A stretch of DNA of 64,000 nucleotides from assembly GCF_000478825.2 (NCBI RefSeq), contig NZ_CP007544.1, positions 39,517 through 103,516 of the forward strand, read 5' to 3'. A program made the translations under genes and the position numbers. This DNA comes from Synechocystis sp. PCC 6714. GTDB lineage: Bacteria > Cyanobacteriota > Cyanobacteriia > Cyanobacteriales > Microcystaceae. Positions 575-12,361 of this stretch are shown here, in pieces. The notes under the pieces were generated by a model, which worked only from the letters and a program-made list of their open reading frames with translations, searched no databases and was not told the origin of the DNA. How positions within the stretch are numbered: position 1 is the stretch's first letter; every line of letters starts with the position of its first letter.

Positions 575-1579
575 ATGACGGCTCAAAATGTACTTTCCCC
601 TCGACAGCTTGAACGACTACTAGCAATTGATGAATATATTCGCTCACCTATTCGATATACAGCAAAAGTAATTGCTGAAAAGTTAAGTGTAGCGGAAAGA
701 ACGATTCGTCTCGACTTTGCTTTTTTAAGAGATAGATTTAATGCTCCTATTCAATTCAATCAGTCTAAAGGCTACTACTATTCAGATAATACTTGGCGTT
801 TACCAACAATCCCTTTGACCCAAGGGGAATTATTTGCTTTGACGTTGGGTGCAAGGGCATTAGAAGCTTATTCTGGGTCTGCCTATGAAGCAGAATTACA
901 ATCGTCCATTAAGCAGTTAGCAGCTCGTTTACCGCAAAAGATTTGGGTGGATTTAGAACGATTAGTCGATGAGCGGATTCACTTTCAACCAGGGGCAGAA
1001 TTGTTAAATCTTGACCCGGATATTTATCAGGTCTTACATGAGGCTTGGAGGTCGTCACGTTCATTATGGATGCGCTATTACACTGCAGGCAGGAATGAAG
1101 AATCGGAACGTATTGTTGACCCCTATTATTTGGATATTTATCGGGGTAGTAACCCCTATTTAGTTGCTTTTTGTCATAATCGCCAAGCATTTCGGGAGTT
1201 CCGTTTAGACCGTATTCGAGAATATCGAATCTTAGATGAGCATTTTGAACCTGACCCTAGCTTTGACTGGAAAAAGTATAGTCAGAATGCGTTTCAAGTG
1301 GAAAAGGGCGATCGCCTTCATAAAGTAGTGATTGATTTTGCATCGAGGGCTGCTCCCTATATCAGAGAGCGGGAGTGGCATCCCTCCCAAAGGATTGATG
1401 AGCATCCTAACGAGTCTTTGACATTGTATCTGGAAGTGGGAGGACTTCAGGAGGTGAAGCGGTGGGTGTTAGGTTACGGCAAGGATGCTTTGGCCAAGTC
1501 TCCACCGGAACTGGTCAAATTGCTTCAGGAAGAGACTGAGGCAATGGCCCGACAAAACGAAATTGGAGGTTGGGAGTAA
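575..1579 (+). CDS. WYL-domain transcriptional regulator (CRISPR-associated)
   Basis: A 334-residue regulator. The N-terminus (about residues 8-60) is a winged HTH resembling the DeoR/YafY type (AEKLSVAERTIRLDFAFLR). The middle (about 150-230) matches a WYL domain, with conserved stretches around VDPYYLDIYRGSNPYLVAFC and REFRLDRI; the rest is a WCX-like tail. WYL regulators are common next to cas genes in cyanobacteria and usually repress or activate them, probably by sensing nucleic acid or nucleotide ligands. It is co-oriented with the cas genes and separated from them by the crRNA-like element. GTAAGTAA sites before this gene, hicBA and cas4-1 are candidate operators (inference). The stop codon overlaps the promoter of the small RNA element. 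Confidence 0.85.
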   Translation: MTAQNVLSPRQLERLLAIDEYIRSPIRYTAKVIAEKLSVAERTIRLDFAFLRDRFNAPIQFNQSKGYYYSDNTWRLPTIPLTQGELFALTLGARALEAYSGSAYEAELQSSIKQLAARLPQKIWVDLERLVDERIHFQPGAELLNLDPDIYQVLHEAWRSSRSLWMRYYTAGRNEESERIVDPYYLDIYRGSNPYLVAFCHNRQAFREFRLDRIREYRILDEHFEPDPSFDWKKYSQNAFQVEKGDRLHKVVIDFASRAAPYIREREWHPSQRIDEHPNESLTLYLEVGGLQEVKRWVLGYGKDALAKSPPELVKLLQEETEAMARQNEIGGWE

Positions 1580-1598
1580 TGCAAGAGGTTACTATAGC
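1570..1598 (+). promoter_or_regulatory. Promoter-like sequence for the crRNA-like element
   Basis: TTGGGA at 1570-1575 and TATAGC at 1593-1598 are separated by 17 bases, each matching 4 of 6 bases of the sigma-70 boxes. Transcription would start near 1605, only about 7 bases before the first degenerate repeat, as expected for a small stand-alone guide RNA. The promoter lies over the end of the WYL gene. Confidence 0.45.
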
Positions 1599-1604
1599 TA
1601 TAGG

Positions 1605-1720
1605 CAGACCTCCATTGATGCAACTGGTTGGCCCGCAATCAGACTGCGTTGAGCACATAAGTGCGGTATCGGATTACCCTCCTATACTCTCAACCTTTGA
1701 TGCCATAAGGCGTTCCGTGT
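1605..1720 (+). ncRNA. crRNA-like regulatory guide (degenerate repeat - pseudo-spacer - degenerate repeat)
   Basis: Two degenerate copies of the array repeat lie here outside the array. The first (1612-1656) keeps CCATTGATGC and GCGTTGAGCAC exactly, but the 6 bases between them in the normal repeat are replaced by 24 bases that can extend the hairpin (CTGGTT 1624-1629 pairs with AATCAG 1637-1642). It ends with the same TTGAGCAC that would form the 8-nt crRNA handle. The second (1685-1720) matches 21 of 23 bases at 1692-1714, including the GATGCC/GGCGTT stem; its ends are degenerate. Processing by Cas6 at both stems would give a roughly 64-nt RNA (1649-1712) with a pseudo-spacer of about 28 nt, shorter than the 35-37 nt of the real array. 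From its first base the pseudo-spacer matches 15 of 17 bases at 1744-1760. The architecture is that of CreA/CreR-type guides. Confidence 0.75.
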
Positions 1721-1740
1721 CTGCCCTCACAAAAAATCTA

Positions 1741-1777
1741 ATGATAAGAGTGGTATCGGAGAGACTTATGCTAGAAT
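1741..1777 (+). promoter_or_regulatory. Predicted guide-RNA target on the hicBA-cas promoter
   Basis: Bases 1744-1760 match pseudo-spacer positions 1-17 except at positions 6 and 8; position 6 is one that type I crRNAs do not pair. The match is preceded by ATG (1741-1743), a PAM I recall for type I-B Cascades of cyanobacterial transposons. Immediately after it is an extended -10 promoter, TG-C-TAGAAT (1769-1777), pointing to hicBA and the cas genes. A 35-nt footprint would cover the whole promoter. Beyond position 17 the match stops, so binding without full R-loop and Cas3 recruitment is the expected outcome (inference). Confidence 0.65.
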
Positions 1778-1845: not shown

Positions 1846-2043
1846 ATGGAAAACCGCCAAAAATTCAAGGATTCAGGCTTATTCCCTTCAATATCTACAT
1901 CTTCTTACCACGACAGGGAATTTGTAGAGCGTTTAATCAGTGAGAATCAGCAACTACGTCAATTGGCTTGTCCGCTATCTGATGACTGTCTTTGCGTTGA
2001 TGACTGGCTACAAAAAGACTACGCCAAAGATAGGGGCTTGTAA
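1846..2043 (+). CDS. Small ORF downstream of the guide-targeted promoter
   Basis: A 65-residue reading frame, the first after the promoter at 1769-1777. It starts MENRQKF and contains a charged, helix-prone middle (REFVERLISENQQLRQLA) and three cysteines near the C-terminus. No ribosome binding site stands out and no family is recognised. Codon use looks like that of neighbouring genes. By position it could be a small regulatory or toxic peptide, but that is only inferred from analogy with CRISPR-repressed toxins. It could also be an untranslated leader that happens to be open. The 5' leader can form a hairpin (CGACC 1793-1797 with GGTCG 1816-1820). Confidence 0.4.
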   Translation: MENRQKFKDSGLFPSISTSSYHDREFVERLISENQQLRQLACPLSDDCLCVDDWLQKDYAKDRGL

Positions 2044-2134: not shown

Positions 2135-2356
2135 ATGCATCAAATTTTGACCATTATTGAAAAGGATGAGTTTGGCTATTATGCTTATTGTCCTGCTTTA
2201 GAGGGTTGTCAAACTCAGGGAGATTCTTTGGAAGAAGTTGAGCAAAATATCAAAGAAGCCATTGCATTATACCTTTCTACGTTGACGAAGGAGGAAAAAC
2301 AAAAACTCTTTGATAAAGAGTTAACTGCAATGATGACAGAGGTTCAAGTTGCCTAA
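2135..2356 (+). CDS. hicB: HicB-family antitoxin
   Basis: A 73-residue protein with the HicB signature: an N-terminal beta strand (ILTIIEKDEFGYYAYCPAL), then EGCQTQGDSLEEVEQNIKEA and an amphipathic helix. HicB binds and blocks the HicA ribonuclease. Many HicB proteins carry an extra C-terminal HTH or RHH domain for autoregulation; here the tail is only about 25 residues, so DNA binding by this protein is doubtful and control may come from elsewhere. It overlaps hicA by 8 bases and lies upstream of cas6 in the same direction. A ribosome binding site (GGAG) lies about 12 bases upstream. Confidence 0.85.
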   Translation: MHQILTIIEKDEFGYYAYCPALEGCQTQGDSLEEVEQNIKEAIALYLSTLTKEEKQKLFDKELTAMMTEVQVA

Positions 2357-2546
2357 AATACCGCGTTTAACTGCAAAACAAGCTGAGAAAATGCTCTTGG
2401 ATGCTGGGTTTGAATTGTTACGAAGTGAAGGTAGCCATCGTATTTATGGCAAACAATCACGCAGAGTTGTAATTCCATTTCATTCTGGCAAAATTTTGCA
2501 TCCAAAAATTGTTAAGCAAGTAATTCAAGCAATTCAAAATGATTAA
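2349..2546 (+). CDS. hicA: HicA-family mRNA interferase toxin
   Basis: A 65-residue protein with a double-stranded-RNA-binding-like fold typical of HicA. The catalytic histidine lies in EGSHRIYGK, followed by the RRVVIPFHSGK strand. HicA cleaves mRNA and stops growth until HicB is in excess. The start is a TTG at 2349 overlapping the end of hicB, giving translational coupling. Its stop codon is 12 bases before the cas6 ATG, so hicBA and the cas genes are very probably one transcript. A toxin in the leading position of a cas operon that appears controlled by a Cascade guide is unusual. The length is normal and the gene looks intact. Confidence 0.85.
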   Translation: MPKIPRLTAKQAEKMLLDAGFELLRSEGSHRIYGKQSRRVVIPFHSGKILHPKIVKQVIQAIQND

Positions 2547-2558
2547 TTGGTGATTATA

Positions 2559-3224
2559 ATGAACTTTATTGATTTGGCCTTTCCTGTAAAAGGTACAGTG
2601 CTTAATGCCGATCACAATTATTATTTGTATTCGGCGATCGCCAAAGAGTTTCCTATCCTTCACGATTTACCCGATTTGGCAGTTAATACTATTTCTGGCA
2701 AGCCAGATCGAGAGGGTAAAATTCTATTAGTGCCAGGTTCTAAACTTTGGATGCGTTTACCGATTGACAACATTACCCACATTTACCAATTGGCAGGTAA
2801 AAAGCTTCGTATTGGTCAATATAGTATTGAGCTGGGTAATCCTAGTTTGCATCCTTTAGAGCCGGTAGAATCACTGAAAGCCCGTATCATTACTATTAAA
2901 GGTCATACCGAACCTATTTCTTTTTTGGAAGCAGTAAAACGGCAACTTTTTGCCCTTGAAATTACTGAAGGGGATGTAGGGATTCCAGCTAATCATGAGG
3001 GGATTCCGAAGCGGTTAACGTTGCAAATTAAAAAACCAGAAAGAACCTATTCTATTGTCGGCTATAGCGTTTTATTATCTAACCTCTCTGCTGAAGATTC
3101 TTTGAAAATTCAACAAGTTGGGATAGGAGGGAAACGTCGGCTTGGCTGTGGTGTGTTTTATCCCGCAGTTAAAAAATCTACTAATTCAGGAAATAAGAAA
3201 AATGTTGAAGCAACTCTTGGCTAA
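2559..3224 (+). CDS. cas6: CRISPR RNA endonuclease Cas6 (MYXAN type)
   Basis: A 221-residue Cas6. It cuts the pre-crRNA inside each repeat, leaving an 8-nt 5' handle. The evidence is the C-terminal glycine-rich loop (GIGGKRRLGCGVF, about residues 187-200), a candidate active-site histidine near the N-terminus (ADHNYYLYSAI) and the position at the head of the cas cluster. The ATG at 2559 is chosen over an upstream GTG because MNFIDLAFPV is a typical Cas6 first strand. It overlaps cas3 by 23 bases. In the array repeat, the small stem TGCC/GGCG ends exactly 8 bases before the repeat end, which fits cleavage at the base of the stem by this enzyme. Confidence 0.85.
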   Translation: MNFIDLAFPVKGTVLNADHNYYLYSAIAKEFPILHDLPDLAVNTISGKPDREGKILLVPGSKLWMRLPIDNITHIYQLAGKKLRIGQYSIELGNPSLHPLEPVESLKARIITIKGHTEPISFLEAVKRQLFALEITEGDVGIPANHEGIPKRLTLQIKKPERTYSIVGYSVLLSNLSAEDSLKIQQVGIGGKRRLGCGVFYPAVKKSTNSGNKKNVEATLG

Positions 3225-5556
3225 GAGTTTACCGACTGATCCACAAAAAAAGCCTTTGTCCCTTGAGCAGCATTTATTGGATACAGAAACAGCGGCTTTA
3301 GTGATTTTCAAAGGTCGTATGCTTGACAATTGGTGTCGTTTTTTTAAGGTTAAAGACCCTGATGAGTTTTTATTGCACTTGCGGGTAGCGGCCTTATTTC
3401 ACGATCTGGGTAAAGCTAATCACGAATTTATAGAAGCTGTTACAGCTAAAGGCTTTGTCCCACAAACGTTACGCCATGAATGGATCAGCGCCTTAGTGCT
3501 TCACTTACCTGAAGTCAGGCAATGGTTGGGAAAAAGTAATCTTAACCTAGAAGTTGTTACAGCGGCGGTGTTATCCCATCACCTAAAAGCAAGTCCTGAT
3601 GGAGATTATAAATGGGATGAACCTCAAAAATCAGGAGATAAGGTTGAGACTAAACTTTATTTTAATCATGAAGAAGTTGACCGTATTCTTAACAAAATTG
3701 CCAATTTATTGGATGTTGACAGCAAACTACCTGAATTGCCTAAAAAGTGGATTAAGGGAGATATTTTTTTGGAAAATATTTATAAAGATGCTAATCAAAT
3801 AGGCAGGAAATTTACTCGTCAAGCCAAAAAAGATGACTCTTTAAAAGGTCTACTTTTAGCGGTTAAAGCGGGACTAATCGCTAGTGATTCTGTTGCTTCT
3901 GGTATTTATCGCACTCAAGATTCAGAGGCGATTGCCAATTGGGTTAACCAAACTCTCCATACAAATTCCATTACACCAGAGGAGATTGAGGAAAAAATTC
4001 TTCATCCCCGTTATCGCCAAGTCGAGAAATCGATTAACGAACCGTTTCAGTTAAAACGCTTCCAAGAAAAAGCAGAAACCTTAAGTTCTCGTTTGTTACT
4101 GATGAGTGGCTGTGGGTCGGGTAAAACGATTTTTGCTTATAAATGGATGCAAGGTGTTCTGAACAAGCATCAGGCAGGCCGTGCTATTTTCCTTTATCCG
4201 ACTCGTGGAACGGCAACGGAAGGATTTAAAGATTATGTTTCCTGGTGTCCTGAAGCTGATGCCAGTCTATTAACCGGAACTGCCACCTATGAATTGCAGG
4301 CGATCGCCAAGAATCCAACGGAAGCAAATGAAGGCAAGGATTATCAAGCTGATGAAAGACTTTATGCTTTGGGTTACTGGGGAAAACGCTTTTTTTCGGC
4401 AACCGTTGACCAGTTTCTCTCATTTTTGACCCACAACTATAAAAGCATTTGTTTATTACCAGTTTTGGCAGATTCCGTGGTGGTAATTGATGAAATCCAT
4501 AGTTTTTCGCCAGAGATGTTTGATAGCCTGGTCTGTTTTCTCAAAACTTTTGACGTTCCGGTTCTTTGTATGACGGCCACGTTACCCCAAACTCGCATTG
4601 AGGATTTAACGATTCAACTTGATAAGGACAAAGACGGGTTAGGGTTAGAGGTTTTTCCCACGTCTGATCGCTCAGAGTTGGCAGAACTTGAAAAGGCGGA
4701 AGGGATGGAGCGGTATCTGATTGCTCACACTAATGAAGAAGCCGCGCTAGACCTTGCCGTTAAAGCCTATCAAGACTCAAAACGAGTGTTATGGGTTGTC
4801 AACACCGTTGATCGCTGTCGAGAGAAGGCACGCAAGCTGGAATGTTTACTGAAAACTGAAGTTTTGACCTATCACAGTCGTTTTAAGCTGGCCGATCGCC
4901 AAAACCGTCACCGAGAGACAGTAGAAGCATTTGCTTTACATCAAGCTCAAGGAGAGAAAAAAGCGGCCATAGCGGTTACAACGCAGGTGTGTGAAATGTC
5001 CTTAGATTTGGACGCAGATGTATTGATCACAGAGCTGGCTCCCATTTCTTCATTAGTACAACGTTTTGGGCGATCTAATCGCGGTGACAAGAACGATAAG
5101 ACTGAACCTTCAAAAATTTATGTTTATAAGCCACCGAAAGATAAACCCTATAAACAAAAAGATGATCTAGATCCTGCTGAAAAATTTATCAATGATGTAT
5201 TGGGTCGAGCAAGCCAAAAGCTATTGGCAGAGAAACTCAAAGAACATTCACCGCCTGGACGATATTCGGATGGTTCAGCCCCTTTTGTTACTCAGGGTTA
5301 TTGGGCAAGCTCCGATGAACCTTTTAGAAAAATTGATGACTTTGCTGTTAATGCGGTTCTGACGGAAGACTTAGGAGAAATTACTCAATACTTGAACAGT
5401 AACCCACCAAAGCCTATTGATGGCTTTATTGTGCCAGTTCCTAAAAAGTATAAGTTCCAGGGTTTTTCACACAGGCCACCACAATTGCCCAAATACCTTG
5501 AAATTGCCGACAGTAAATTTTATTCATCAAAACGAGGGTTTGGAGACGATGCCTAA
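3202..5556 (+). CDS. cas3: Cas3 nuclease-helicase (HD domain plus SF2 helicase)
   Basis: A 784-residue protein that unwinds and shreds target DNA after Cascade binding. The N-terminal HD nuclease shows LFHDLGKANHEF at about residue 66, plus further histidines (SHHLKA). The helicase has Walker A (GCGSGKT, about 305), DEIH (about 428), TATLP (motif III) and QRFGRSNR (motif VI, about 620). The ATG at 3202 is preferred over an earlier in-frame ATG inside cas6 because the HD-domain start follows normally. It overlaps cas6 by 23 bases and cas8 by 8 bases, giving tight coupling. All key residues appear present, so interference should be functional. Confidence 0.9.
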   Translation: MLKQLLAKSLPTDPQKKPLSLEQHLLDTETAALVIFKGRMLDNWCRFFKVKDPDEFLLHLRVAALFHDLGKANHEFIEAVTAKGFVPQTLRHEWISALVLHLPEVRQWLGKSNLNLEVVTAAVLSHHLKASPDGDYKWDEPQKSGDKVETKLYFNHEEVDRILNKIANLLDVDSKLPELPKKWIKGDIFLENIYKDANQIGRKFTRQAKKDDSLKGLLLAVKAGLIASDSVASGIYRTQDSEAIANWVNQTLHTNSITPEEIEEKILHPRYRQVEKSINEPFQLKRFQEKAETLSSRLLLMSGCGSGKTIFAYKWMQGVLNKHQAGRAIFLYPTRGTATEGFKDYVSWCPEADASLLTGTATYELQAIAKNPTEANEGKDYQADERLYALGYWGKRFFSATVDQFLSFLTHNYKSICLLPVLADSVVVIDEIHSFSPEMFDSLVCFLKTFDVPVLCMTATLPQTRIEDLTIQLDKDKDGLGLEVFPTSDRSELAELEKAEGMERYLIAHTNEEAALDLAVKAYQDSKRVLWVVNTVDRCREKARKLECLLKTEVLTYHSRFKLADRQNRHRETVEAFALHQAQGEKKAAIAVTTQVCEMSLDLDADVLITELAPISSLVQRFGRSNRGDKNDKTEPSKIYVYKPPKDKPYKQKDDLDPAEKFINDVLGRASQKLLAEKLKEHSPPGRYSDGSAPFVTQGYWASSDEPFRKIDDFAVNAVLTEDLGEITQYLNSNPPKPIDGFIVPVPKKYKFQGFSHRPPQLPKYLEIADSKFYSSKRGFGDDA

Positions 5557-7204
5557 AACTCAAGCAGAAATCTTAACACTAGACTTTAATTTAGCTGAGT
5601 TACCTTCTGCACAACATCGTGCTGGTTTAGCAGGACTCATTTTAATGATCCGAGAACTGAAAAAATGGCCATGGTTCAAGATTCGCCAAAAAGAAAAAGA
5701 TGTTCTTTTAAGCATTGAAAACCTCGATCAATATGGGGCTAGTATTCAGCTTAATCTGGAAGGCTTAATCGCTCTATTTGATTTGGCTTACTTATCCTTT
5801 ACCGAGGAAAGAAAATCAAAAAGTAAAATCAAGGACTTTAAAAGGGTTGATGAAATTGAAATCGAGGAAAATGGTAAGAATAAAATCCAAAAGTATTATT
5901 TTTATGACGTGATTACTCCCCAAGGAGGCTTTTTGGCAGGATGGGACAAATCTGATGGACAGATTTGGCTTAGAATTTGGCGAGATATGTTCTGGAGCAT
6001 TATCAAGGGTGTTCCTGCTACTCGTAATCCATTCAATAATCGCTGTGGTCTTAATTTAAATGCAGGTGACTCATTTTCTAAAGATGTTGAATCTGTTTGG
6101 AAAAGCTTACAGAATGCAGAAAAGACAACAGGACAATCGGGTGCTTTCTATCTAGGAGCAATGGCGGTTAATGCTGAAAATGTTTCTACTGATGATTTAA
6201 TAAAATGGCAATTTTTACTGCATTTTTGGGCTTTTGTCGCTCAAGTTTACTGTCCTTATATTTTAGATAAAGATGGAAAGCGAAATTTTAATGGCTATGT
6301 TATTGTGATTCCTGATATTGCTAATCTTGAAGATTTTTGCGATATTTTACCTGATGTTTTAAGTAATAGAAATTCTAAGGCTTTTGGTTTTCGTCCTCAA
6401 GAATCAGTTATCGATGTTCCTGAACAAGGAGCATTGGAATTACTTAATTTAATTAAACAGCGGATTGCCAAAAAAGCAGGGTCTGGTCTTTTATCTGACT
6501 TGATTGTAGGAGTTGAAGTTATTCATGCGGAAAAGCAGGGTAATAGCATTAAGTTACATTCTGTTAGCTATCTTCAACCTAATGAAGAAAGCGTCGATGA
6601 TTACAATGCCATCAAAAATTCTTATTATTGTCCCTGGTTTCGTCGTCAACTTTTATTGAACTTAGTGAATCCTAAGTTTGATCTCGCTTCACAGTCTTGG
6701 CTTAAACGTCATCCCTGGTATGGCTTTGGTGATCTACTAAGCCGTATTCCTCAAAGGTGGCTCAAGGAAAACAATAGTTACTTTAGCCATGATGCCCGTC
6801 AATTATTTACTCAAAAAGGAGATTTTGACATGACTGTTGCTACAACTAAAACCCGCGAATATGCTGAAATTGTTTACAAAATTGCCCAAGGATTTGTACT
6901 CAGCAAGCTATCCAGTAAACATGATTTACAATGGAGCAAATGTAAAGGAAATCCTAAGCTAGAGCGGGAATATAACGACAAGAAAGAAAAGGTAGTCAAT
7001 GAAGCTTTTTTGGCAATTCGTTCTCGTACAGAAAAGCAGGCTTTTATTGATTACTTTGTTTCAACGCTCTATCCCCATGTTCGACAAGACGAGTTTGTGG
7101 ACTTTGCCCAAAAACTTTTCCAAGATACGGATGAAATTCGCTCATTAACCCTACTCGCCTTATCTAGTCAATATCCCATCAAAAGACAAGGGGAAACAGA
7201 GTAA
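5549..7204 (+). CDS. cas8: Cascade large subunit Cas8 (Csx13/DevT-like, MYXAN type)
   Basis: A 551-residue protein with little recognisable motif content, as usual for Cas8. It is identified by length, by its position between cas3 and the DevR-type cas7, and by overall resemblance to the Cas8a1/Csx13 (DevT) family of MYXAN loci. In Cascade the large subunit recognises the PAM and helps open the target. The ATG at 5549 has a GGAG four bases upstream; the frame is open further into cas3 but that part is cas3 shadow. It overlaps cas3 by 8 bases. A DevT homologue of Myxococcus has a role in development, but there is no reason to infer that here. Confidence 0.75.
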   Translation: MPKTQAEILTLDFNLAELPSAQHRAGLAGLILMIRELKKWPWFKIRQKEKDVLLSIENLDQYGASIQLNLEGLIALFDLAYLSFTEERKSKSKIKDFKRVDEIEIEENGKNKIQKYYFYDVITPQGGFLAGWDKSDGQIWLRIWRDMFWSIIKGVPATRNPFNNRCGLNLNAGDSFSKDVESVWKSLQNAEKTTGQSGAFYLGAMAVNAENVSTDDLIKWQFLLHFWAFVAQVYCPYILDKDGKRNFNGYVIVIPDIANLEDFCDILPDVLSNRNSKAFGFRPQESVIDVPEQGALELLNLIKQRIAKKAGSGLLSDLIVGVEVIHAEKQGNSIKLHSVSYLQPNEESVDDYNAIKNSYYCPWFRRQLLLNLVNPKFDLASQSWLKRHPWYGFGDLLSRIPQRWLKENNSYFSHDARQLFTQKGDFDMTVATTKTREYAEIVYKIAQGFVLSKLSSKHDLQWSKCKGNPKLEREYNDKKEKVVNEAFLAIRSRTEKQAFIDYFVSTLYPHVRQDEFVDFAQKLFQDTDEIRSLTLLALSSQYPIKRQGETE

Positions 7205-7287: not shown

Positions 7288-8193
7288 ATGAGTAACCTCA
7301 ATCTTTTTGCCACGATTTTAACTTATCCTGCCCCTGCGAGTAATTATCGGGGGGAATCGGAAGAAAATCGCAGTGTGATCCAAAAAATCCTTAAAGATGG
7401 ACAAAAGTATGCCATTATCAGCCCCGAGTCGATGCGGAATGCCCTGCGGGAAATGTTGATTGAGTTGGGTCAACCTAACAATCGCACTCGCTTACACAGT
7501 GAAGATCAGTTAGCGGTTGAATTTAAGGAGTATCCTAACCCCGATAAATTTGCCGATGATTTTTTGTTTGGCTACATGGTTGCCCAAACTAACGATGCCA
7601 AGGAAATGAAAAAGCTGAACCGTCCAGCGAAGCGGGATAGCATTTTTCGGTGCAATATGGCGGTGGCTGTGAATCCCTATAAATACGACACGGTGTTTTA
7701 TCAATCTCCTCTTAATGCTGGGGATAGTGCCTGGAAAAATTCTACCTCTTCGGCCTTACTCCATCGGGAAGTTACCCATACAGCATTTCAATATCCCTTT
7801 GCTTTAGCCGGTAAAGATTGCGCCGCAAAACCAGAGTGGGTCAAAGCCCTATTGCAGGCGATCGCCGAATTAAATGGAGTCGCAGGGGGTCATGCCCGTG
7901 CTTATTATGAATTTGCACCCCGGTCTGTGGTGGCTCGGTTAACGCCAAAATTGGTCGCCGGTTATCAGACCTATGGGTTTGATGCTGAGGGAAATTGGCT
8001 TGAATTGTCTCGTTTAACTGCTACTGATAGTGACAATCTTGATCTACCGGCCAATGAATTTTGGTTAGGAGGTGAACTGGTGCGGAAAATGGATCAAGAA
8101 CAAAAAGCTCAATTAGAAGCGATGGGGGCCCATCTTTATGCCAATCCTGAAAAATTGTTTGCCGACTTAGCAGATAGTTTTCTGGGGGTATAA
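7288..8193 (+). CDS. cas7: Cascade backbone protein Cas7 (DevR family)
   Basis: A 301-residue protein of the DevR/Cas7 autoregulator family. Several copies would line the crRNA and form the Cascade backbone. Family features are the N-terminal FATILTYPAPASNYRGESE, the SVIQKILKDGQKYAIISPES stretch near residues 30-50, and the VTHTAFQYPFALAG segment typical of DevR-like Cas7. The ATG at 7288 is preferred over one 15 bases upstream. An 83-base gap follows cas8, the largest in the cas6-cas5 group, and cas5 begins 3 bases after its stop. In Myxococcus the DevR homologue represses its own operon; a similar feedback would fit the guide-based repression proposed here. Confidence 0.85.
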   Translation: MSNLNLFATILTYPAPASNYRGESEENRSVIQKILKDGQKYAIISPESMRNALREMLIELGQPNNRTRLHSEDQLAVEFKEYPNPDKFADDFLFGYMVAQTNDAKEMKKLNRPAKRDSIFRCNMAVAVNPYKYDTVFYQSPLNAGDSAWKNSTSSALLHREVTHTAFQYPFALAGKDCAAKPEWVKALLQAIAELNGVAGGHARAYYEFAPRSVVARLTPKLVAGYQTYGFDAEGNWLELSRLTATDSDNLDLPANEFWLGGELVRKMDQEQKAQLEAMGAHLYANPEKLFADLADSFLGV

Positions 8194-8196
8194 CCA

Positions 8197-8910
8197 ATGG
8201 CACAGCTAGCATTGGCTTTAGATACAGTTACCCGATATCTCCGGCTTAAAGCTCCCTTTGCGGCTTTCCGACCCTTTCAGTCGGGTTCCTTTCGTTCTAC
8301 CACACCAGTTCCCTCTTTTTCAGCAGTATATGGGCTACTGCTCAATCTAGCGGGGATTGAACAACGACAGGAGGTGGAAGGTAAAGTAACGCTGATTAAA
8401 CCCAAAGCCGAATTACCTAAACTGGCGATCGCCATTGGTCAGGTTAAACCGTCCTCAACTTCCTTAATTAATCAGCAGTTGCATAACTATCCAGTGGGTA
8501 ACTCTGGCAAGGAATTTGCTTCAAGAACTTTTGGTTCTAAATATTGGATTGCTCCGGTGCGACGGGAGGTATTAGTTAATCTTGATTTGATTATTGGACT
8601 ACAATCTCCGGTTGAATTTTGGCAGAAACTTGACCAAGGTTTAAAGGGAGAAACCGTAATTAATCGTTATGGATTGCCGTTTGCTGGGGACAATAATTTT
8701 CTTTTTGATGAGATTTATCCCATTGAAAAGCCAGATTTAGCTAGTTGGTATTGTCCTTTAGAACCAGATACCAGACCGAATCAAGGAGCTTGCCGTCTGA
8801 CTTTATGGATTGACAGAGAGAATAATACTCAAACTACAATCAAAGTATTTTCTCCTAGTGATTTCAGGTTGGAGCCACCCGCAAAGGCTTGGCAACAGTT
8901 ACCAGGGTAA
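8197..8910 (+). CDS. cas5: Cascade subunit Cas5 (DevS-like)
   Basis: A 237-residue RAMP protein. Cas5 caps the 5' handle of the crRNA. It shows the characteristic N-terminal beta strand and FRPFQSGSFRSTTPVPSFSA segment, in which the P-S-F-S-A-VYGLLLNLAG helix matches Cas5 proteins. It starts 3 bases after the cas7 stop, so the two are translationally coupled. Together with cas8 and cas7 it makes the DevTRS trio of MYXAN loci. No irregularity is seen. Confidence 0.85.
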   Translation: MAQLALALDTVTRYLRLKAPFAAFRPFQSGSFRSTTPVPSFSAVYGLLLNLAGIEQRQEVEGKVTLIKPKAELPKLAIAIGQVKPSSTSLINQQLHNYPVGNSGKEFASRTFGSKYWIAPVRREVLVNLDLIIGLQSPVEFWQKLDQGLKGETVINRYGLPFAGDNNFLFDEIYPIEKPDLASWYCPLEPDTRPNQGACRLTLWIDRENNTQTTIKVFSPSDFRLEPPAKAWQQLPG

Positions 8911-9210: not shown

Positions 9211-9225
9211 TCGTATTTATTTTCA

Positions 9226-9257
9226 CCCCTGAAAGATTTTTGCAGGGGTCTTTTTAT
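9226..9257 (+). terminator. Rho-independent terminator after the Cascade genes
   Basis: A perfect 6-bp stem, CCCCTG (9226-9231) with CAGGGG (9243-9248), is followed by TCTTTTTAT. It separates the cas6-cas5 transcript from cas4-1/cas2. The same hairpin in weaker form precedes the WYL gene. Confidence 0.75.
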
Positions 9258-9262
9258 AGAAT

Positions 9263-9285
9263 GTAAGTAATCGAATTTTACTTAC
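9263..9285. promoter_or_regulatory. Palindromic operator before cas4-1
   Basis: GTAAGTAA (9263-9270) and TTACTTAC (9278-9285) form a perfect 8-bp inverted repeat with a 7-base gap, ending 4 bases before the cas4-1 ATG. Related arms occur at 547-554 and 2054-2090. It is probably an operator; the WYL protein is the obvious candidate binder (inference). Confidence 0.6.
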
Positions 9286-9289
9286 TCTT

Positions 9290-10984
9290 ATGTACACATT
9301 AGAACCACAAGAAACTCAACAAATTACGGAAGATACCCTCCGAGTTTGTTCTCTTCATGCTTATGCTTATTGTCCTCGTCTTTTCTACTTAGAAGAAGTC
9401 GAGGAACTTTACACCCAAGATGCGGCGGTTTTTGCCGGACGGCGCTTGCATGAGGAACTTGAAAAAAACGAGGATGAGGAATGGTTAGACCTTTATCTCG
9501 AAGATGAGCTTTTGGGTTTACGGGGACGGGTAGATGCGCTTAAAACCCGCAACGGTGAAACGATTCCCTATGAGCATAAGCGTGGGCGTTGCTACCGGGA
9601 TGAAAATAAGCAGCCCCAAGCCTGGGAAAGTGATCGCCTACAAATTTTGGCCTACTGTTACCTTCTGGAAGTCGCACTAGGTATCACGGTAGCGGAGGGG
9701 CGTATTCGTTACCATGCAGACAATGTTTTAGTTCATATTCCCTTTGACCAAGCAGCAAAATGTTCGGTAGAGACGGCCATTCAAGAAGCTAAAGCTCTGC
9801 GGCGCACCGCGAAGCGGATCTCTGTGAGATCGCCCTATCGTCCAGCCGTAACCAACAACGAACATCTTTGTACCCGTTGTTCTCTGGCAGCGGTGTGTTT
9901 ACCGGAGGAAGCCCGTCTTGCTCACAATAAAGAATGGCATCCGACCCGGTTATTTCCCCAGGATGATGAGCGCGAAGTTATTCATATTTTGGAACCGGGA
10001 ACCCGTGTTGGTCGTACCGGGGAACAACTGAAAATTACACGGCGCGATCAACCAATTGAAAAATTATCGGTGCAACAAGTTAGTCAGGTGGTGCTTCATA
10101 GCTTTTCCCAGCTTTCTACCCAAGCTCTGCATTTTCTTTCTTACAAAGATGTTGGTATCCACTTCATTTCTGGGGGAGGGCGTTATGTGGGTAGTTTAGA
10201 TACTCGTCAAGGCAGTATTCAAAGACGTATTCACCAATATCAGGCGTTAACTCAGCCAGATTTTACTCTCAGTTTGGCAAAAAAATTAGTTTATTGTCGC
10301 GGTGAAAGTCAACGAAAATTTTTGATGCGAGGCAAGCGTAATCGGCAAGAATCGCTTCCAATAGTGGAACAAGCAATCGACCAAATTAAGGCGGTTGTGC
10401 GTCTTGTTCAACATTCTGAATCTCTAGCATCTTTATTGGGGTATGAGGGCAATATGGCCGCGTTATATTTTGCGGCTTTATCGGAACTTCTCTCAGAAGA
10501 TGTTCCCGATAATCTGCGTTTTGCTGGGCGTAATCGTCGCCCTCCCAAGGATCGTTTCAATGCACTACTCAGCTTTGGCTATGCGTTGCTGATCAAGGAT
10601 GTGATGAACGCTATTCTCACCGTGGGTTTGGAGCCAGCACTGGGGTTTTATCACCAACCCCGCACCCAAGCGCCGCCCTTGGCATTGGATTTGATGGAAG
10701 TTTTTCGAGTGCCATTAGTTGACATGACGATTATCAGTTCCCTTAATCGGGGGCAATGGCATGAATCGGAAGATTTTGATATCCGGGGCCAACAAGTTTG
10801 GCTTAGTGAATCGGGACGACGTAAGTTTATTGAAATCTATGAGGCCCGTAAGTCAGAAAAGTGGAAACATCCTGCCACAGGCTATTCCCTAACCTACCGC
10901 CGTTTATTTGAGTTGGAAGTACGTCTACTCGAAAAAGAATGGTCGGGGGAAGCCGGTCTCTTTGGTCGTTTGATTTTACGCTAG
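9290..10984 (+). CDS. cas4-cas1: Cas4-Cas1 fusion (spacer acquisition)
   Basis: A 564-residue fusion. The N-terminal part (about 1-205) is Cas4, a RecB-like FeS nuclease that trims prespacers and checks the PAM. It has a first cysteine in AYAYCPRLFYLEE, nuclease residues in RVDALK and PYEHKRGR, and the cysteine cluster CTRCSLAAVC. The C-terminal part (about 215-564) is Cas1 integrase, with metal-binding glutamate in YEGNMAALYF (about 385), histidine in FYHQPRTQ (about 453) and acidic residue in DLMEVFR (about 468). Cas4-Cas1 fusions are typical of MYXAN and I-G loci. It has its own operator and probably promoter. cas2 follows after 8 bases. Confidence 0.92.
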   Translation: MYTLEPQETQQITEDTLRVCSLHAYAYCPRLFYLEEVEELYTQDAAVFAGRRLHEELEKNEDEEWLDLYLEDELLGLRGRVDALKTRNGETIPYEHKRGRCYRDENKQPQAWESDRLQILAYCYLLEVALGITVAEGRIRYHADNVLVHIPFDQAAKCSVETAIQEAKALRRTAKRISVRSPYRPAVTNNEHLCTRCSLAAVCLPEEARLAHNKEWHPTRLFPQDDEREVIHILEPGTRVGRTGEQLKITRRDQPIEKLSVQQVSQVVLHSFSQLSTQALHFLSYKDVGIHFISGGGRYVGSLDTRQGSIQRRIHQYQALTQPDFTLSLAKKLVYCRGESQRKFLMRGKRNRQESLPIVEQAIDQIKAVVRLVQHSESLASLLGYEGNMAALYFAALSELLSEDVPDNLRFAGRNRRPPKDRFNALLSFGYALLIKDVMNAILTVGLEPALGFYHQPRTQAPPLALDLMEVFRVPLVDMTIISSLNRGQWHESEDFDIRGQQVWLSESGRRKFIEIYEARKSEKWKHPATGYSLTYRRLFELEVRLLEKEWSGEAGLFGRLILR

Positions 10985-10992
10985 GGAAAATT

Positions 10993-11286
10993 ATGGCAGA
11001 ACTCAAAAATTGGTATTTGATTTGTTATGACATCCGTTGTCCTAAACGCTGGCGTAAAGCTTACAAACTACTTGAGGGGTATGGCGATCGCCTACAATAC
11101 TCCATTTTTCGCTGTTGGCTTAGTCAACGAATGCGTGAAAAGTTGCGCTGGGAGTTGGAAAAGATTCTGACTCTTGAGGATGACCTAATTTTAATTAGGC
11201 TGTCAGCTCAATGTGTCAAGGATTTACCAAAATATAATCGCCAAAATACTTGGATATTAGAAGGGGGTGGCTTTCGGGTAATTTGA
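10993..11286 (+). CDS. cas2: Cas2 endoribonuclease-like adaptation protein
   Basis: A 97-residue Cas2. It forms the dimer that bridges Cas1 in the integrase complex. The ferredoxin-like fold begins with YLICYDIRCPKRWRKAYKLL, including the conserved aspartate, followed by RLQYSIFRCWLS. The ATG at 10993 is chosen over an upstream in-frame start inside cas1 because it gives a normal length and follows a GGGAAAA stretch. It is the last cas gene; the leader and array follow. Confidence 0.92.
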   Translation: MAELKNWYLICYDIRCPKRWRKAYKLLEGYGDRLQYSIFRCWLSQRMREKLRWELEKILTLEDDLILIRLSAQCVKDLPKYNRQNTWILEGGGFRVI

Positions 11287-11538: not shown

Positions 11539-12361
11539 GTGTCCAAACCATTGATGCCGTAAGGCGTTGAGCACTTACAAATGGAACTAACACTTGTTTT
11601 GGATCGAAGTGTGTCCAAACCATTGATGCCGTAAGGCGTTGAGCACACCTGGAATTTGGAGCCACCCAAACCCAGCGGGGGGGTGTCCAAACCATTGATG
11701 CCGTAAGGCGTTGAGCACTTTATCACCGTGTCCCCAATCTGGATATTTTGTGTGTGTCCAAACCATTGATGCCGTAAGGCGTTGAGCACTAACAATTACA
11801 GAAACTTCAAGCGGATTTGCTATAGTGTCCAAACCATTGATGCCGTAAGGCGTTGAGCACACCGTAAGATTGGCAGATATTATCGTCCCTGATATGTGTC
11901 CAAACCATTGATGCCGTAAGGCGTTGAGCACCATACCGTGCATCAGGATAATATCACAATGCTTTCTGGTGTCCAAACCATTGATGCCGTAAGGCGTTGA
12001 GCACGCAGATCTGGACATTGACACGACCAGGGAAACCCTGTGTCCAAACCATTGATGCCATAAGGCGTTGAGCACGGATTTGCTCATGCCAATTGTGGGG
12101 GATTTTGCCCGTGTCCAAACCATTGATGCCGTAAGGCGTTGAGCACGCGTGGCGGGCGGGGCAATTGTTAGTGCGATCGCCGTGTCCAAACCATTGATGC
12201 CGTAAGGCGTTGAGCACTACGTTTTTCCGTCCCAGGCAACATAGCAGGCATGGGTGTCCAAACCATTGATGCCGTAAGGCGTTGAGCACCTTGGTTTGAT
12301 GAGTCCACCGGCTGGGTTAAAGGTAGTGTCCAAACCATTGATGCCGTAAGGCGTTGAGCAC
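11539..12361 (+). CRISPR. CRISPR array, 12 repeats of 36 bp and 11 spacers
   Basis: The repeat starts GTGTCCAAACC, carries the hairpin GATGCC-GTAA-GGCGTT and ends GAGCAC. Repeat starts are 11539, 11611, 11683, 11754, 11825, 11896, 11969, 12040, 12111, 12182, 12254 and 12326. Spacers are 35-37 bp and all differ. All repeats are identical except the eighth (12040), which has A for G in the loop (GCCATAAGG). That same change occurs in the degenerate repeat at 1685-1720. The last repeat is not degenerate. Rightward transcription is inferred from the position of the stem, giving an 8-nt handle TTGAGCAC. Reading frames over the array on the minus strand are artefacts of the repeats. Confidence 0.97.

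Follow-up and report, generated by a model that had tools for sequence, protein, structure and literature searches.

A predicted CreR-type guide RNA at the type I-B MYXAN cas operon of Synechocystis sp. PCC 6714 and its relatives

The window analysed here is a stretch of 64,000 nucleotides from a 103.5-kb replicon of Synechocystis sp. PCC 6714 (genome, 3.74 Mb). Judged from its sequence, the segment at 1612-1720 is a two-repeat mini-CRISPR located between a WYL regulator gene and a hicBA-cas operon, and it very probably encodes a CreR-type RNA for the autorepression of cas; Cas6 processing of this RNA and its loading into Cascade are predicted. A guide-target pair of this kind is present in 21 of the 48 type I-B MYXAN loci examined, four of the 21 being weaker. 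Since the same arrangement recurs in many relatives, with guides that mostly differ and yet match their own site, it suggests a conserved and likely self-regulating circuit.

The locus reads on the plus strand in the order WYL regulator, mini-CRISPR, 65-aa ORF, hicB, hicA, cas6, cas3, cas8b, cas7, cas5, cas4-cas1, cas2-like ORF and CRISPR array, with the following features.

575..1579, plus strand: gene for a WYL/WCX-domain HTH regulator (Pfam WYL 2.5e-20, WCX 7e-17)
1612..1656, plus strand: psiR1, degenerate CRISPR repeat 1 with an enlarged hairpin; its last 8 bases, TTGAGCAC, are the 5' handle
1649..1712, plus strand: predicted mature CreR RNA of ~64 nt, assuming Cas6 cleavage at both pseudo-repeats as the repeat geometry suggests
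1657..1673, plus strand: stretch of the guide (pseudo-spacer) that matches the target, 15/17
1685..1720, plus strand: psiR2, degenerate CRISPR repeat 2, with the hairpin stem retained and the handle end degenerate or lost
1741..1743, plus strand: ATG, the PAM by its sequence; AYG is the best PAM reported for this Cascade (PMC11096372)
1744..1760, plus strand: guide target, covering what should be the -35/spacer region of the predicted hicBA-cas promoter
1769..1777, plus strand: predicted extended -10 (TG-C-TAGAAT); it begins 25 nt past the start of the target, and its hexamer begins at 28 nt
1846..2043, plus strand: small ORF of 65 aa with no Pfam or NCBIfam domain
2135..2356, plus strand: hicB antitoxin gene (Pfam HicB_lk_antitox 1.2e-7)
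2349..2546, plus strand: hicA toxin gene (Pfam HicA_toxin 1.2e-12)
2559..3224, plus strand: cas6 (Cmx6; TIGR02807 5e-61)
3202..5556, plus strand: cas3 (TIGR01587 5e-50; start codon provisional)
5549..7204, plus strand: cas8b (Cmx8), Cas11b included (TIGR04413 6e-168)
7288..8910, plus strand: cas7 (DevR) and cas5 (DevS)
9290..11286, plus strand: cas4-cas1 fusion and a cas2-like ORF, the latter assigned by position and sequence only
11539..12361, plus strand: CRISPR array of 12 repeats, repeat GTGTCCAAACCATTGATGCCGTAAGGCGTTGAGCAC

Residues 428-551 of the encoded Cas8b match Cas11b, and all 551 residues of the protein align with PDB entries 8ip0 and 8h67 at a bit score equal to that of a self-match; both entries are described as the Cas8b of Synechocystis sp. 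PCC 6714 (PMC11096372). No match to this Cas8 was found in the four other Synechocystis genomes searched, nor were MYXAN relatives found in the viral contigs searched. Across the whole genome, matches to the array repeat at E <= 0.001 are confined to 11539-12361. The WYL regulator gene has 86% DNA identity to a copy on plasmid pSYSM of PCC 6803. A 52-bp direct repeat (504-555 and 9220-9271 of the window, 77% identical) precedes the WYL gene and cas4-cas1, and it also stands ahead of the WYL gene on pSYSM; it is perhaps shared promoter or operator DNA.

The element has the build of a crRNA-like gene with degenerate repeats, outside the array and at the cas locus, as expected of a CreR gene. psiR1 shares CCATTGATGC and GCGTTGAGCAC with the array repeat, the two flanking an enlarged loop, and folds at -14.5 kcal/mol (z -1.7), a modest gain over shuffled sequence. 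In psiR2, the core at 1692-1714 has 91% identity to 11 array copies and 96% to one. The initial annotation of this DNA was thus right to describe two degenerate repeats outside the array, the first with its left and right parts and its handle exact and with a larger hairpin that still folds. Its further claim, that a promoter-like sequence stands ahead of the guide gene, fared less well: TATAAT-like boxes occur upstream of the guide in 8 of the 21 positive loci against 10.0 expected, which is no enrichment. The case for a dedicated guide promoter is weak, without support from the locus comparison.

The guide at 1657-1673 agrees with 1744-1760 in 15 of 17 bases and ATG directly precedes the target. 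This match had been noted before with a single mismatch, at position 6; a second mismatch is present at position 8, inside a paired segment. The preceding ATG was also correctly recognised, and it is the optimal PAM published for the same Cascade, which is reported to bind best at AYG PAMs and to carry a crRNA of ~71 nt (PMC11096372). The guide is therefore partially complementary to the predicted cas promoter next to a PAM reported as functional in that source, as a CreR guide would be. The target adjoins the extended -10 at 1769-1777, as the initial annotation had read it, and transcription of hicBA-cas is expected to start near 1784; transcription start sites of PCC 6714 have been mapped (PMC5386190). 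The sigma-70 scan did not list this -10, presumably because it has no -35. A second pair in the window (handle at 2004, target at 1779, 13/17 with mismatches at 1, 2, 5 and 16) was dropped as chance.

One alternative is that the element is a stranded or decaying piece of the array whose promoter match arose by chance. Repeats outside the array do occur in L018 and L051 with no promoter match found for them. However, only 7 of 400,000 random 17-mers of matched base composition reached at least 15/17 at any of the 160 AYR sites within 700 nt on both strands, a chance of about 2 in 100,000 for the window alone. Together with the recurrence of the pair and the distribution of its mismatches across loci, described below, this makes the alternative very improbable. 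In the whole genome, a degenerate pattern of the site has one mismatch-free match, at 1744-1760, and one other match with two mismatches; the reversed pattern, used as control, gave 6.

Scanning genome contigs with an alignment of Cas8 yielded 49 related loci, 43 of them with sequence upstream of cas6; L032, L037, L040, L054, L062 and L065 were left out as having no usable stretch there, and the stretches of L025, L033, L035, L036, L039, L045 and L066 were shortened. With the window these made 44 regions, and four later loci (two plasmids and two genome stretches) brought the set to 48. As had been suggested, these relatives, including the cyanobacterial ones, were searched for the degenerate repeat pair and a target. 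The positive loci are the window, L019, L020, L021, L023, L024, L025, L027, L029, L030, L033, L035, L041, L042, L057, L060, L061, L066, L068, L069 and L070, and no pair was found in the other 27 of the 48. The weaker members are L021 (12/17), L041 (9/10 seed bases, 9/17), L068 (10/10 seed bases, 11/17) and L070 (14/17, handle with 2 mismatches). L022, scored as lacking the pair, holds what appears by eye to be a decayed copy without an AYG PAM.

The pair is far more frequent in these loci than in shuffled sequence. In a joint search, the 9-base handle could depart from one of three consensus forms at no more than 1 base, the PAM was AYR, all 17 positions had equal weight and the target lay within 700 nt. 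At a threshold of at least 13/17, this search scored 18/48 loci against 13/2400 shuffled regions, and at least 14/17 was reached in 13/48 loci against 2/2400. One of the 18 joint-search sites, at 4222 in L068, was rejected, as it differs from the guide site. A triple search, which adds the second repeat, an AYG PAM and 9/10 seed bases, scored 15/48 loci against 0/1200 shuffled regions, missing L019, L021, L027, L029, L066 and L068. An earlier strict search scored 15/44 regions against 0/440 shuffled; it disregarded positions 6, 12 and 18 and is therefore unusable for the mismatch test below. Two looser settings, both with up to 3 mismatches in the 9 handle bases, were rejected: 208/880 shuffled regions scored when the second repeat and at least 11/17 were required, and 274/880 at 13/17 or better with no second repeat. 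Of the three later loci counted as positive, one, L069, passes the first threshold, and L070, mismatched at 6, 12 and 17, is found by the triple search.

The positive loci are from cyanobacteria and from records titled Candidatus Obscuribacterales (L042), Acidobacteria (L057) and Sandaracinaceae (L066). This spread bears on whether the element could be an RNA anti-CRISPR of phage origin, in which a single Racr-like repeat captures Cas6 or Cascade. Having repeat-like sequence away from the array would suit that origin, yet here two repeats enclose a guide, the target is flanked by a PAM and the whole lies beside the cas operon, unlike a solitary repeat with no promoter-directed guide; the recurrence across cyanobacteria and the Acidobacteria and Sandaracinaceae records also speaks against it, and we consider such an origin hardly credible. 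Among the loci that lack a pair, L018 carries a non-degenerate two-repeat mini-array on its minus strand (6629-6736), upstream of cas6 and adjoining a WYL fragment, and no promoter match was found for it.

Guide and target change together between lineages. For 17 loci (all positives except L041 and L068-L070), each guide was scored on its own upstream region and on those of the other 16. Scores on the own region were 12-16 of 17, whereas cross-region scores were 8-12 in 264 of 272 cases. The remaining 8 cases reached at least 13; six of them pair the Nostoc loci L023, L024 and L061 with one another, their guides being nearly alike, and the other two, both 13, are the guide of L025 on L035 and that of L042 on L027. 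In a control with 826 ordinary array spacers, taken from 29 loci and scored against their own upstream regions, the maximum was 13, in 5/826. Co-variation in orthologous loci, set beforehand by the initial annotation as one of the results on which its reading would stand or fall, was thus observed: the guides mostly differ between lineages, and they fit their own upstream region better than those of other loci. Of the loci added later, one agrees at the same threshold, and two more do so at a weaker one.

A positional profile was built from 16 loci, taking one pair per locus with at least 13/17 and 0-1 handle mismatches, and the better of two tandem targets in L024 and L061. Matches at positions 1-5 number 16, 16, 14, 16 and 15, those at 7-11 number 16, 13, 14, 16 and 15, and those at 13-17 number 16, 16, 14, 14 and 14. 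Positions 6 and 12 match in only 4 of the 16 loci each, which is the chance level. Conservation of pairing fades by about position 20 (8, 8 and 7 matches at 18-20, and 0-8 beyond, with 4 expected). In total, 24 of 39 mismatches in the 16 loci fall at positions 6 and 12 against 4.6 expected, and none of 200,000 permutations was as extreme; without the close Nostoc relatives L024 and L061, the count is 20/32. The conservation of segment 13-17 holds for the 16-locus profile, not for the later L068 and L069. Cas7 of the PCC 6714 Cascade is reported to flip out every sixth base (PMC11096372). The match pattern that leaves 6 and 12 free is the footprint expected when a type I Cascade reads the guide, and on account of this footprint the element is most likely a CreR-type cas autorepressor.

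Targets are found on either strand. The target is on the opposite strand in L029, L030 and L066, and both guide and target are on the minus strand in L057. Among the 13 loci with the target on the plus strand, 9 have a TANNNT box beginning 26-29 nt past the start of the target, against a background of 2.6% per position, an offset range that was picked after inspection, in a set containing the close relatives L024 and L061 and the weak member L021; in those loci an R-loop would therefore cover the -35 region. In the Nostoc loci L024 (6469 and 6489) and L061 (6481 and 6501), two tandem copies of the target, each flanked by ATG, lie 20 nt apart.

The match between guide and target might instead result from DNA duplication, leaving two operator copies for the WYL regulator. 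A WYL gene is located upstream of the guide in most positive loci, and the repeats could be operators. Duplication is nevertheless at odds with the concentration of mismatches at 6 and 12 of the guide register, with a copy that starts exactly at the handle end and after ATG (ATA in L019), and with sites that lie on either strand and differ between lineages, and we regard it as most improbable.

The presence of the pair follows the length of the gap between the WYL gene and cas6. In a table of 29 loci with a WYL match, compiled by hand, the pair is held by 15 of the 17 loci with a gap of more than 250 nt and by 0 of the 12 with a shorter gap (Fisher P = 2e-6); L021 was entered as holding and L041 and L049 as lacking, and L018 was left out (a WYL fragment 118 nt before cas6, a short gap, no pair). 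L060, entered as lacking, bears a guide upstream of its WYL gene. The later long-gap loci L068, L069 and L070 bear a pair, and none was found in L071, where cas6 follows WYL closely (83-nt gap). On pSYSM of PCC 6803, the WYL gene stands directly ahead of a truncated cas6 start, and the guide and hicBA are absent. An ORF there (L067:5077-5286) is annotated as a recombinase family protein and begins with about 28 residues of a Cmx6-type Cas6, which marks it as the remnant of a MYXAN cas locus in PCC 6803. By this arrangement, the WYL-cas6 segment of about 980 nt in PCC 6714 is extra relative to the relic. These comparisons suggest that the guide accompanies a separate cas promoter and that, where the guide is lacking, cas may be read from WYL.

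In PCC 6714, the targeted promoter precedes the small ORF, hicBA and cas6, with hicA paired with hicB in the predicted operon. This position raises the speculative role of a toxin guard, in which the RNA would act mainly as an antitoxin-like guard of hicBA in the manner of CrePA or CreTA, and a cell that lost Cascade would be poisoned by derepressed hicBA, so that CRISPR is kept. In its favour, hicBA occupies the interval from the targeted promoter to cas6 and has the same orientation, 12 nt separate the end of hicA from cas6, and no plus-strand terminator-like site was found in 1480-2600. However, HicB would be derepressed along with HicA, and the guide-target pair recurs in relatives where hicBA was not found: hicA and hicB were detected in none of the 53 other loci by tblastn (E <= 1e-3; the 49 and the four later ones), and by eye no hicBA is among the ORFs listed between target and cas6 in other loci. 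The other positive loci have, by eye, different small ORFs or none before cas6. Because hicBA is found in this locus only, it is unlikely to be the reason the circuit evolved, and a guard function is improbable. The shared role of the guide is most likely control of cas, with hicBA probably a passenger or a local addition.

A composite circuit, in which one Cascade-bound guide meters cas and at the same time holds down hicBA in the cas leader, is somewhat less improbable than a pure guard, though still doubtful. If it existed, cas and HicA would go up together whenever an anti-CRISPR acts or Cascade is lost, and one promoter would combine self-tuning with an abortive or addiction response. Small ORFs between target and cas6 in L020, L021, L025, L033 and L069 share, by eye, an LHKGRNSWRVI-like end motif, and those of the window and L060 have a CVEDxLQxEY-like end instead; these ORFs may encode accessory regulators or toxins.

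Under the preferred reading, autorepression of cas, a transcript through 1605-1720 would be cut by Cas6 at both hairpins, releasing a roughly 64-nt RNA that carries the TTGAGCAC handle. This RNA would join the type I-B Cascade and bind 1744-1760 through three 5-nt segments, and the bound complex would keep RNA polymerase from the -35/-10 region. The roughly 17 nt of pairing would suffice for binding and would end too early for Cas3-driven cutting. Successful competition by ordinary crRNAs, or loss or blockage of Cascade, would open the promoter, and the output of cas and hicBA would rise. The initial proposal that Cascade with this RNA represses hicBA and cas is supported as a prediction by the co-variation and the published PAM, and by analogy with published CreR work the circuit might sense the loss of Cascade or anti-CRISPRs.

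Over distant lineages, evolution has retained the bases that Cascade reads (1-5, 7-11 and 13-17) and has let the flipped-out positions 6 and 12 drift, and this natural footprint bounds the amount of pairing that a regulatory guide retains. For this strain, solved type I-B structures and a measured PAM of its own Cascade are at hand, which makes the native autorepression model testable at once. For users of this cas operon or promoter, repression by Cascade is likely.

In comparison with known systems, the element is closest to CreR. Liu et al. (2023, Cell Host Microbe) reportedly described CreR as cas-regulating RNAs of types I-B, I-E and V-A. Like these, the PCC 6714 element would yield a crRNA-like RNA from a mini-CRISPR with partial complementarity to a cas promoter. 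CreR is thus already known for type I-B; the MYXAN loci add distinct features, and the work of Liu et al. may list some of them. Among the literature matches listed, no CreR is named in a cyanobacterial or MYXAN locus, in line with the earlier statement that no such description was known for a MYXAN/DevRST-type locus with hicBA. In the sources as available, CreR RNAs of types I-B, I-E and V-A autorepress cas through partial promoter pairing (PMC13131331, PMC12948488, PMC12737573). Release of autorepression by crRNA competition or by anti-CRISPRs is described there as demonstrated for CreR, and it is predicted in PCC 6714.

CreA of the CreTA module (Haloarcula type I-B; PMC8501985, PMC9458426) likewise has two degenerate repeats around the guide and is reported to repress via Cascade with partial pairing, as predicted in PCC 6714. 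In mutational work, halobacterial CreA is described as requiring positions 1-5 and 7-11 and tolerating changes at 6 and 12 (PMC8501985), the same two positions that are free in the MYXAN guides. As reported, CreA keeps a toxic RNA repressed by pairing at 1-5 and 7-11, whereas the MYXAN guides also conserve 13-17 and their target precedes cas. CrePA (PMC12737573) resembles the present element in Cascade-guided repression of a promoter, and the PCC 6714 promoter also precedes a protein toxin gene, hicA; in contrast to CrePA as described in that source, no KilA-N toxin is seen at this locus, and hicBA includes its own antitoxin and was not found in the relatives examined. Racrs, reported as solitary repeats in viral genomes (PMC10651486), share the production of a repeat-like RNA outside the array, whereas PCC 6714 has two repeats around a promoter-directed guide. 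Since CreR is known in type I-B, the PCC 6714 element joins CreR with features of its own: the locus is a MYXAN-type I-B system (Cmx8), pairing is conserved over three 5-nt segments (~17 nt), targets occur on either strand within the group, and in PCC 6714 the first hairpin is enlarged and hicBA lies inside the predicted operon.
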